Part shown: positions 24,366-29,805 of the stretch, one piece after another
How positions within the stretch are numbered: position 1 is the stretch's first letter
Layout: the number at the start of each line of letters is the position of its first letter
From: Geminicoccaceae bacterium
GTDB taxonomy: Bacteria; Pseudomonadota; Alphaproteobacteria; Geminicoccales; Geminicoccaceae
Direction: 5' to 3'
Assembly: GCA_023512415.1 (NCBI GenBank)
Contig: JAILZQ010000010.1
Coordinates: 1-36,314, forward strand
DNA length: 36,314 nt
The notes under the pieces: model-generated
What the model was told of the DNA's origin: nothing
The model's database searches: none
Seen by the model: the letters and a program-made list of their open reading frames with translations, nothing else
Position numbers and translations under genes: made by a program

Positions 24366-24806
24366 ATGCCGAACCGGACGATGTGGGTGGTGGTGGCCGA
24401 CGGGGCGCGGGCCCGGATCTTCCAGGGCGATCCCAAGGTGGGCGGGCTCGAGCTCGTGATGCCCGAACTCACCGGCCGCGGCCGCGAGAAGGGCTCGGAG
24501 CTGTTGGCCGACCGTCCGGGTCGGAGCGTCGATTCGAGCCATGTCGGCAATCGCCACGCCATGGAGCCCTCGACCGACCCCAAGGAGGTCGAGAAGGAGC
24601 GCTTCGCCCGCGAGCTCGCCACGACCCTCGAGGCTGCCGCCAACGAGGGCCGGTTCGCCCGGCTGATGCTCGTGGCCCCACCCAAGATGCTGGGCGAGCT
24701 GCGCGAGCTGATCTCCGAGAAGGTCAAGGAGAAGGTCGTCAAGGAGGTCGACAAGGACCTCACCTGGGTCTCGGTGCACGAGCTGCCCGGGCATCTGCGG
24801 GATTGA
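24366..24806 (+). CDS. Host attachment protein family (protein required for attachment to host cells)
   Basis: TMWVVVADGARARIFQ N-terminus, central EPSTDPKEVEKERFARELATTLEAA, RLMLVAPPKMLGELRELIS, VVKEVDKDLTWVSVHELPGHL; characteristic of the family. Confidence 0.88.
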   Translation: MPNRTMWVVVADGARARIFQGDPKVGGLELVMPELTGRGREKGSELLADRPGRSVDSSHVGNRHAMEPSTDPKEVEKERFARELATTLEAAANEGRFARLMLVAPPKMLGELRELISEKVKEKVVKEVDKDLTWVSVHELPGHLRD

Positions 24807-25952: not shown

Positions 25953-26567
25953 GTGGCCCGGCGACCGCCGCAGGCCGAGCCCGCGGTCGATCCGGACCGG
26001 ATCCTCGAGGTCGCGCTCGCCCTCGCCGAGGAGAACGGCTTCGAGCAGCTCCGGCTGAGCGAGGTCGCCGAGCGGGCGGGCGTGACCCTTCCCGAGGTCG
26101 CGGCCCGGTTCCCGGATACCAACGCCATCGCCGATGCCTGGTTCGCCCGCGCCCTCGATGCGGTCTGGGCGAGCCCGCCCGAGCTCCTGGCCGACCCCGA
26201 CCCCGCGGTCCGGCTCGAGCGGGTGATGCTCCGCTGGTTCGAGGCGCTCGCGCCGCACCGGGTCCTGACCGGCGCCATGATCCGGGCCAAGCTCTGGCCG
26301 TCGCACCCGCACCATTGGGTGCCGATGATCTTCGCCCTCTCGCGCCTGGTGCACGCTTTCCTCGACGTGGCCCGCATACCCGGTCGCGGTGCCGAACGCG
26401 CCGCCCAGGAGATCGGCGGGACGCTTTTGACCCTCGAAACGCTCGCCGTGTTCCTGACCGATCCGACCCCCGAGCTCGAGCGGACGCGCGCCGTGCTGCA
26501 CCGCAGCCTCGAGGGTGGCGTGGCGGTCCTGCGCAGGGTCGGCCCGTTCCTCGCCCGGATCGGCTGA
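25953..26567 (+). CDS. TetR/AcrR-like transcriptional regulator
   Basis: GTG start; ILEVALALAEENGFEQLRLSEVAERAGVTLPEVAARFPDTNAIADAWFARAL resembles a TetR N-terminal HTH; helical C-terminal region. Confidence 0.75.
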   Translation: MARRPPQAEPAVDPDRILEVALALAEENGFEQLRLSEVAERAGVTLPEVAARFPDTNAIADAWFARALDAVWASPPELLADPDPAVRLERVMLRWFEALAPHRVLTGAMIRAKLWPSHPHHWVPMIFALSRLVHAFLDVARIPGRGAERAAQEIGGTLLTLETLAVFLTDPTPELERTRAVLHRSLEGGVAVLRRVGPFLARIG

Positions 26568-27140: not shown

Positions 27141-27244
27141 CGGACAGGAAGCGGCCGACTCCTCGCGCAGCGATTGCAACGCTCGCCGGCTTGCGCCACA
27201 AGGGCGACCCGCGGCACCACGCCGCTCGTTCTCGGAGACCGCTC

Positions 27245-28141
27245 ATGGCGTTGCGCGAGCCCGAGTCGCACGTGCCCTTGCCGTCGGCGCGCGAGGAGGC
27301 GCTGCGCGAGCCACCGCGGCCCGACACCCCGCAGACCCGCTCGCCGAGCTACCGGCTCGCCTTCACCGACATCGACTTCCTGCTGCGCGAAGAGCTCCGC
27401 CCCGTCCGGCTGCAGCTCGAGCTCTTGAAGCCCGAGCTCGAGCTGCAGCGCCACGGGATCGAATCGACCATCGTCGTGTTCGGCAGCGCGCGGATCGTCG
27501 AGCCTGCCGAAGCGCGGCGTCGCCGACTCGAAGCCGAAGCGGAGGCCCGCGCCCGACCGGACGATGCGGCAGCCGCCCGTCGCCTTGCGATCGCCACCCG
27601 GCTCGAGCAGCTTTCGCGCCACTACGAGGAGGCCCGCCGGTTCGCCGCCCTTGTCTCGCGCGAAAGCCGCGACGGCGACCGGCATCGTTACGTCATCGTC
27701 ACGGGCGGCGGGCCGGGGATCATGGAGGCCGCCAATCGTGGTGCGTCGGAGGCCGGGGCGCCCACGATCGGCCACAACATCGTGTTGCCGCAGGAACAGG
27801 CCCCCAATGCTTGGGTGACGCCGGAGCTCTGCTTCCGCTTCCACTATTTCGCGCTCCGGAAGATGCATCTTTTGACCCGTGCCAGGGCACTGGTCGTGTT
27901 CCCCGGTGGCTACGGCACACTGGATGAGCTCTTCGAGACGCTTTGCCTCATCCAGACCAAGAAAGCGCGATCGATACCGGTGCTGCTCTTCGACGAGAAT
28001 TATTGGAGGAGCATCGTCGATTTCGAGGCGATGGTCGAGCAGGGCGTGATCGACGAGCACGACCTCGCGATCTTCCGCTTCGTGGAGACCGCGGAGCAGG
28101 CTTGGCAGGTGATCCGCGAGCACTACGCAGCGCGCGAATGA
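27245..28141 (+). CDS. LOG family protein (TIGR00730-type / lysine decarboxylase-like Rossmann fold)
   Basis: TIVVFGSARI, YVIVTGGGPGIMEAANRGASEAGAPTIGHNIVLP, CFRFHYFALRKMHLLTRARALVVFPGGYGTLDELFETLCLIQTKK (PGGYGTLDE signature). Confidence 0.93.
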   Translation: MALREPESHVPLPSAREEALREPPRPDTPQTRSPSYRLAFTDIDFLLREELRPVRLQLELLKPELELQRHGIESTIVVFGSARIVEPAEARRRRLEAEAEARARPDDAAAARRLAIATRLEQLSRHYEEARRFAALVSRESRDGDRHRYVIVTGGGPGIMEAANRGASEAGAPTIGHNIVLPQEQAPNAWVTPELCFRFHYFALRKMHLLTRARALVVFPGGYGTLDELFETLCLIQTKKARSIPVLLFDENYWRSIVDFEAMVEQGVIDEHDLAIFRFVETAEQAWQVIREHYAARE

Positions 28142-28180
28142 TCGGACAGAAATTCATCTGATGGTTGCTACACGGCGAGC

Positions 28181-28196
28181 CCGCTGCTAGCAGCGG
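28181..28196. repeat. Perfect 16-bp palindrome upstream of the degenerate MBL gene
   Basis: CCGCTGCTAGCAGCGG is its own reverse complement; its GCTGC/GCAGC half-sites match those upstream of the phasin gene. Confidence 0.7.
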
Positions 28197-28227
28197 CGCG
28201 CGTCGAAGTCGCCTCGCGGGAGACGGG

Positions 28228-29805
28228 ATGCCGATCCGCCTCACCTTCCACCGTGGAGCCTCGACGGCCACCGGAAGCTGCTTCCTCTTCGAGCACGACC
28301 GCGGCCGCTTCCTGGTCGATTGCGGGCTGTTCCGAGGAACCCGCACCCTCGCCGCGCTCAACCACCGCGATCCACCCTTCGCCGCCGCGAGCCTCGACTT
28401 CGTGCTGCTCACCAGCGCCCGACCGGATCGCGCCGGGCTATTGCCCGCGCTCCTGCGGGCCGGTCTGCGCGGCCCGATCATGGCCTGCGAGCCCACTGCA
28501 GAGCTGCTCGGCTTCGTCCTCCCCGACCTCGCCGATCGCCTCGCCGAAGAGGCCGCCGAGCGCAACGCCCGGGCCCGTCGCCGCGGCCTGCCCGAGACCC
28601 GGCCGATCTTCTCGCCGAACGATGCGGCCCGCTGCCTCGAGCGGCTCGAGGCTTGCGACGCCGGCCGATGGTTCGAGCCCGGGCCCGGCGTTCGAGCCCG
28701 CTTCTGGGCAGCTCCGGGCGCACACGCCGCGAGCGCGCTCGAGCTCCTCGTCGAGGACGGTAGCGGGCCGCCGCAACGGCTGTCGATCTCGGGCGAGATC
28801 GGGTCGCTCGACCCCCGGAACCCGGCCGGGCCTTCCGGGGTCGACCAGCTGATCGTCGAGTGTACCGGCTGCGGCCGGGAGTCCGGCGAGGCGAGCCGCG
28901 ACGAGCGCCGTGGGGAGCTCCTCCGCGAGATCGGCGAGGCGCTCGCCGCCGGTGGGCCGGTGCTGATCCCGGCCTTCGAGGCCGAGCAGGGTCGCGAGCT
29001 CCTCTCGGTGCTCCTCGATGCGATCGAGCGCGGCGAGCTCCCCGAGGTTCCGGTGATCGTCGACACGCCGCGCGCCGGTGCGGCGATCCGCACCTTCGCT
29101 CGCCAAGGGCCGGGTCTCGCCGCACCGATCGATCCGGCCCGTCTCTTCGCGAGCGCGCGGCTCGTTCTCGCCGAGAGCGGCGAGACGAGCGCCGTGCTCG
29201 AGGGCGCCGCCGGCCGAGCCGTCATCCTCGCCTCGAACGGGCTCGACGGCGGCGGGCGGCTCGGCCGGCATCTGCGCGAGCATCTCTGGCGACCGCAGGC
29301 CACCTTGCTGTTCATCGGCCATCAACCGCCCGGCGGGCTCGGCCAGGTCATCCTCTCGGGTGAGCGGCGGGTGCGGATCGCCGGAGAGGAGACCGCGGTC
29401 CGCGCCCGGATCCGCCGCACCGATGCGCTGGCCGGCCACGCCGACCGCCGCGCCTTGCTCGCCTGGATCCTGGAGCGCGGCCCGATCGCCGGCTCGATCT
29501 TCCTGGTCCGCGGCGAGGAGGCCGCCGGCGCCGCGCTGCGCGCTCACCTCGCGGCCGAGGGCGTCGACCCCTTGCGGATCGTCGTTCCCGAACTCGACCA
29601 GCGCTTCCTGCTCGTCCGGGGCGGCAGGGCCGAGCCCCTGCCCGGCCCGCGCCGCCTCGAGCCCCGCTTCGTCGGTGCCGCCGCCGACTGGCACAACGCC
29701 TATGCGCGGCTCCTGCTCGACATCGCCGAGGAGGTCCGGCAGCTGCCCGACGATCGCTCGCGCCTCGAGCTGCTCGGACGGCTGCGCCGGACGCTGCGCG
29801 CGTGA
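28228..29805 (+). CDS. Metallo-beta-lactamase/beta-CASP-fold protein with degenerate metal-binding motifs (probable pseudo-enzyme)
   Basis: beta-CASP layout: SARPDRAGLLPALLRAGLRGPIMACEPTAELL, VDQLIVECTGCGRE, LIPAFEAEQGRELLSVLLDAI, ILASNGLDGGGRLGRHL, LLFIGHQPPGGLGQVIL, LAGHADRRALLAWI, IFLVRGEEAAGAAL; HxHxDH replaced by SxRxDR. Confidence 0.85.
   Translation: MPIRLTFHRGASTATGSCFLFEHDRGRFLVDCGLFRGTRTLAALNHRDPPFAAASLDFVLLTSARPDRAGLLPALLRAGLRGPIMACEPTAELLGFVLPDLADRLAEEAAERNARARRRGLPETRPIFSPNDAARCLERLEACDAGRWFEPGPGVRARFWAAPGAHAASALELLVEDGSGPPQRLSISGEIGSLDPRNPAGPSGVDQLIVECTGCGRESGEASRDERRGELLREIGEALAAGGPVLIPAFEAEQGRELLSVLLDAIERGELPEVPVIVDTPRAGAAIRTFARQGPGLAAPIDPARLFASARLVLAESGETSAVLEGAAGRAVILASNGLDGGGRLGRHLREHLWRPQATLLFIGHQPPGGLGQVILSGERRVRIAGEETAVRARIRRTDALAGHADRRALLAWILERGPIAGSIFLVRGEEAAGAALRAHLAAEGVDPLRIVVPELDQRFLLVRGGRAEPLPGPRRLEPRFVGAAADWHNAYARLLLDIAEEVRQLPDDRSRLELLGRLRRTLRA

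Follow-up and report, generated by a model that had tools for sequence, protein, structure and literature searches.

The pseudo-nucleases known for the beta-CASP fold are chiefly eukaryotic subunits such as INTS9 and CPSF100; the RNase J2 proteins of Firmicutes belong with them in part. INTS9 is the pseudoenzyme in a nuclease pair; its motif 2 reads NYHC and it pairs with INTS11 partly through C-terminal domains (PMC7980224). RNase J2 has a binding role in addition to an activity that is weak in some species (PMC7864078, PMC5383250). Replacement of a single motif-2 His in E. faecalis RNase J2 (H69A or H71A) leaves the protein inactive without weakening its binding to RNase J1 (PMC5383250), and the S. 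epidermidis protein, with Glu for the bridging Asp, still binds one Mn at a site that also has four His ligands (PMC7864078). Our literature search on beta-CASP pseudoenzymes returned Integrator papers only.

Here we examine a gene in a 36,314-nt stretch of Geminicoccaceae DNA (contig JAILZQ010000010.1; hereafter the window) whose product, like INTS9 and CPSF100, has a beta-CASP fold that has lost its metal motifs and is conserved despite an apparent loss of catalysis. INTS9 and CPSF100 are paired with active paralogues, whereas we found no paralogue of the same subfamily, active or otherwise, in the window genome. The window protein resembles RNase J2 in being bacterial, of beta-CASP type and altered at the metal site, but RNase J2 retains several His ligands, of which the window protein has none, and belongs to a different subfamily.

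A beta-CASP protein with an intact predicted fold

The gene (28228-29805, forward strand) runs uninterrupted from ATG to stop, as the first-pass annotation had stated, and its open reading frame, Pfam matches and aligned orthologues identify it as the coding sequence of a 525-residue beta-CASP protein. Pfam matches to Beta-Casp (3.5e-13) and RMMBL (3.1e-8) are both over the cut-off. The Lactamase_B match falls below its cut-off, and the metallo-beta-lactamase (MBL) part was recognised by alignment and from the structural model, so that the MBL, beta-CASP and RMMBL parts of the fold all lie within one chain. The AlphaFold2 model, computed from an alignment of 26 natural homologues, has a pLDDT of 86 and a pTM of 0.88, and Foldseek searches with it put TTHA0252 entries at the top (target-normalised TM 0.84). 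The model scores and these matches indicate that the fold is predicted to be intact, and together with the Pfam matches and the homologue alignment they bear out the earlier recognition of a beta-CASP scaffold.

TTHA0252, a beta-CASP ribonuclease of Thermus thermophilus (PDB 2dkf, 3ie1), is also the nearest solved structure by sequence (E 5e-44). It has the same MBL/beta-CASP/RMMBL architecture but carries all seven metal ligands, compared with one of seven in the window protein, and at 431 residues it has no room for the C-terminal extension present here. The window protein is probably a descendant of a zinc-dependent beta-CASP ribonuclease of this TTHA0252-like family, which occurs across Alphaproteobacteria. 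Its core is detectably similar to that of Cas14 of type VII CRISPR systems (NF045584) and to that of aCPSF1/FttA (TIGR03675), but it scores 182.5 bits against a cut-off of 800 for the former and 130 bits against a curated cut-off of 580 for the latter, and unlike aCPSF1/FttA it lacks KH domains. No CRISPR-type genes were seen among its annotated neighbours (phasin, LOG, 3HCDH, TetR and Lon-like genes). Nor does it match RNase_J_b_CASP or RNase_J_C, which sets it apart from RNase J.

Loss of metal ligands

Alignment with more than 50 homologues placed the canonical motifs and shows that six of the seven metal ligands are replaced in the window protein (H63S, H65R, H68R, H164G, D190E and H428R), leaving D67 as the only unchanged one. 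Motif 2 (residues 62-70, 28411-28437) reads TSARPDRAG in place of THAHxDHxG, exactly as first reported, with all three His replaced and the Asp kept. The motif 4 bridging ligand (28795-28797) is Glu within SGE rather than SGD, and the motif C ligand (29509-29511) is Arg within FLVRGE rather than FLVHGE; both earlier readings agree with the alignment. The His of PGAHAASA had been taken for the motif 3 His, but it is out of register: it is residue 166, is found only in the window genome among the three that share this altered site, and the motif 3 position itself (residue 164, 28717-28719) is Gly in all three. Ligand equivalents by motif alignment are thus S63, R65, G164 and E190, and D67, R68, E190 and R428, and the set expected of an active zinc-dependent beta-CASP nuclease (HxHxDH, motif 3 His, motif 4 Asp and motif C His) is absent. 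The Arg, Asp and Glu residues R65, R68, R428, D67 and E190 are expected to form salt bridges where the metals sat.

Other motif residues persist. Asp31 of motif 1 (28318-28320) is kept, as are Glu211 of motif A (28858-28860) and His404 of motif B (29437-29439), the last two as previously noted. His404 is kept genus-wide, whereas Asp31 is Glu in G005 and Glu211, also kept in G005, is lost in G004 and G002. By its Pfam matches the protein would be annotated as a zinc-dependent metallo-hydrolase.

Distribution of the losses within the genus

The genus is represented in our collection by six genomes (G000-G005, G000 being the window genome), and most genomes used are draft assemblies. Three of the six, G000, G004 and G005 (AP024683, the complete genome of Geminicoccaceae bacterium KatS3mg117), define a dead-site clade with 100% support in the gene tree. 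They have in common xARPDRAG, G164, E190 and R428, so that five replacement residues are identical in all three species, and only position 63 varies (S or D). The other three congeners, G001, G002 and G003, retain HAHxDH, the motif 3 His and SGD, yet already carry R428. All seven ligands are intact in the ~65 homologues sampled, not exhaustively, outside the genus (44 from Alphaproteobacteria, plus a phylum sample of 28 in which 7 come from genomes already represented). Because the same losses occur in G004 and in the complete genome G005 while the outside homologues are intact, chance and sequencing error, the latter raised by the first-pass annotation, can be excluded. That annotation had also proposed that closest homologues with HxHxDH, together with relaxed selection, would mark an isolated decaying copy; G001, G002 and G003 do keep the motif, but G004 and G005 share the dead site.

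Since H428R is carried by all six congeners, ligand loss was stepwise. The simplest history has H428R arising in the ancestor of the genus, with the remaining losses following on the branch that leads to the dead-site clade. The intermediate orthologues in G002, G001 and G003 (L004-L006), which keep HxHxDH but have Arg in motif C and, in G002, have also lost the motif A Glu, may already be impaired enzymes. The beta-CASP domain of these orthologues is strongly diverged (omega ~0.17).

A conflict between the gene tree and the species tree was suspected. The neighbouring Lon-like protease and LOG genes place G002 closer to G000 than G004, and the protease rejects the other order (AU p 0.002). 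The RNase J tree, however, weakly groups G000, G005 and G004 as the gene tree does, and a wider concatenation did not resolve the branching order of the genus; the dead site can therefore have had a single origin without gene transfer. The adjacent Lon-like protease, CoxL-like and LOG genes give conflicting trees for the genus, which suggests local recombination. We set aside the rpoB tree as uninformative for G000, because the contig carrying its rpoB match (C171, 596-1765; L074) looks like a foreign contaminant. That match is only ~68% identical to its congeners, has an internal TAA and spans 1170 nt over the Pfam region, compared with ~1700 nt in the others. The window contig, in contrast, agrees with the genus wherever the two were compared.

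Selection and the C-terminal extension

We fitted codon models (own implementation, F3x4) on a fixed alignment and assuming the gene's own tree. Omega is 0.102 for the dead-site crown, 0.111 for the other branches of the genus and 0.062 for intact outgroups; the dead-site stem value of 0.30 does not differ significantly from the rest. Omega of 1 is rejected for the crown (2dlnL 473), although selection there is weaker than in the outgroup (2dlnL 7.4); for neighbouring genes of these three genomes omega is 0.04-0.08. Because synonymous divergence is near saturation, these tests against neutrality are firm whereas the absolute omega values are rough. Given the fitted branch lengths, the probability that an Arg, Gly or Glu is kept in all three genomes is 0.02-0.04 under neutrality and ~0.6 at the observed omega. 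The SxRxDR-type site is thus shared by a clade of three species under purifying selection, and the loss of catalytic residues from a protein that keeps its fold and this selection fits a pseudo-enzyme, as first suggested.

Constraint has also moved within the protein. When domains were fitted separately, intact clades had omega values of ~0.04-0.08 in the core and 0.08-0.18 in the C-terminal extension, whereas in the genus the core rises to ~0.07-0.17 and the extension (residues 456-525, 29593-29802) falls to 0.024-0.035, so that no other part of the protein is under stronger constraint there. The ratio of tail to core omega is 0.26 in the genus versus 1.99 in intact clades (2dlnL 107.5, p = 3.5e-25). 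The last 42 residues are identical between G001 and G003 (42/42) although 20 of the 42 codons differ synonymously, which indicates that selection on the tail acts on the protein. Nucleotide-level conservation was considered as a cause and rejected, since fourfold sites diverge in the tail as elsewhere in the gene. The AlphaFold2 model predicts two helices in the tail (488-505 and 509-524). The tail has no match among Pfam and PDB sequences, and no second copy was found in the genome, where the only other match has an E value of 0.5. The shift of constraint extends to genomes whose only loss is motif C, so the new role may have arisen before motif 2 was lost.

Neighbourhood, spacer and palindrome

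Upstream of the gene lie genes for a Host_attach/baeRF12 protein, a 3-hydroxyacyl-CoA dehydrogenase, a TetR-type regulator, a phasin and a LOG-family protein. The LOG gene (PF03641, TIGR00730-like; 27191-28141, forward strand) is a conserved partner, 83-94% identical within the genus, and the order LOG then beta-CASP holds in most family members examined; the phasin (PF09361, TIGR01841; 26702-27073, forward strand) is likewise a conserved neighbour in the family. The TetR-family gene (25953-26567) lies between the dehydrogenase and the phasin genes, and only the six congeners have it in this neighbourhood. The Host_attach protein of bacterial eRF1-like family 12 (24366-24806) is encoded upstream of the cluster. 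A literature search linking this beta-CASP family to phasin operons returned nothing relevant.

The gap between the LOG stop and the start of the pseudo-enzyme gene is 86 nt in the window (28142-28227) and 80-87 nt across the genus, versus -4 to +23 nt in six of the seven relatives measured outside it; in the seventh (G011) it is 980 nt. Within the spacer, 32 nt before the start codon, lies a perfect 14-bp palindrome, CGCTGCTAGCAGCG (28182-28195), a candidate operator. Each dead-site genome carries a single copy, located in this spacer, and the three other congeners have none. The other spacer columns are 44% invariant, a rate at which 14 consecutive invariant columns have a probability of ~1e-5 per position. 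The leader gave no support for a conserved RNA hairpin (z from -1.4 to +0.3 across the three genomes), and since its folding is unremarkable a DNA operator is likelier. Scans of the spacer for a consensus sigma-70 promoter and for a terminator found neither. The pseudo-enzyme gene is now set apart from LOG and probably under the control of its own palindrome.

Possible functions of the protein

In the dead-site clade the product has probably given up cutting and taken on a new function, because the gene is intact, the tail is under stricter selection than in working relatives and a putative control site has appeared. By analogy with E. faecalis RNase J2, whose inactive mutants still bind RNase J1, and with INTS9, we lean towards a former beta-CASP ribonuclease that is conserved as a non-catalytic adaptor or regulator and relies on its C-terminal helices, in parallel to INTS9 and CPSF100. 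The first-pass annotation had likewise suggested a repurposed protein, possibly for RNA binding or as a scaffold. Under this proposal the motif C ligand would have been lost first (H428R, in the whole genus), followed by motifs 2, 3 and 4 in the clade of G000, G005 and G004. The fold would have been retained with an Arg/Asp/Glu cluster in the former metal site, and the helical extension would have become the part under strongest selection. The protein would then work without catalysis, the tail binding a partner and the retained beta-CASP body possibly RNA, while the gene became separated from LOG and probably controlled by its own palindrome. Whether all three elements, namely stepwise loss, movement of selection from the catalytic body to a helical tail formerly under weak constraint, and a new spacer with a palindromic control site, belong to one such conversion we regard as an even call.

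The partner might be an active beta-CASP enzyme, as in the mixed dimers INTS9-INTS11, CPSF100-CPSF73 and RNase J2-J1, and here that enzyme would be RNase J. It is the only other RMMBL protein in the window genome, where it is intact and matches both RNase_J_b_CASP and RNase_J_C, and likewise in each genus genome examined, with intact motifs wherever the full gene was seen; its presence indicates that another beta-CASP enzyme serves RNA turnover. The partial reliance of INTS9/INTS11 pairing on C-terminal domains (PMC7980224) would also suit a protein whose tail is its most constrained part. Known active/inactive pairs are close paralogues, however, whereas RNase J falls in another subfamily and has a C-terminal domain of its own, and no signal connects the two genes, which lie on different contigs; we therefore consider this partnership rather unlikely. 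A changed yet active enzyme, using a new metal site or metal-independent chemistry, is highly improbable. D31, D67, E190, E211 and H404 do persist in the window protein and could possibly form a different weak metal site, which counts against the adaptor reading, and RNase J2 is an example of activity at an atypical site that holds one metal (PMC7864078). But all five His ligands are gone, three of them now Arg, which would repel a cation, and the remaining set is not conserved, E211 being Gly in G004 and D31 Glu in G005.

Slow decay of an enzyme no longer needed, with relaxed selection on a gene heading for loss in a family where loss is common, would account for a core omega about twice that of intact relatives (0.10-0.11 versus 0.04-0.05). 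It would also fit the lack of a match to the query in 14 of 32 family genomes and the faster divergence of the protein within the genus (52.8% identity between G000 and G002, compared with 87.2% for RNase J). Some of the relaxation anticipated for a decaying copy is thus seen, in the core, yet a copy decaying in isolation is excluded. The gene is full-length, in frame and free of stops in all six congeners, omega of 1 is rejected by a large margin, constraint on the tail exceeds that seen in intact relatives, the replacement residues are fixed, and the palindrome is conserved within an otherwise variable spacer. Decay is therefore quite improbable, and the non-catalytic adaptor or regulator remains our preferred reading. 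The ancestral state, an intermediate that has lost motif C but retains motif 2, and the final state all survive as orthologues, mostly in the same neighbourhood, so the route from enzyme to non-enzyme can be tested step by step.
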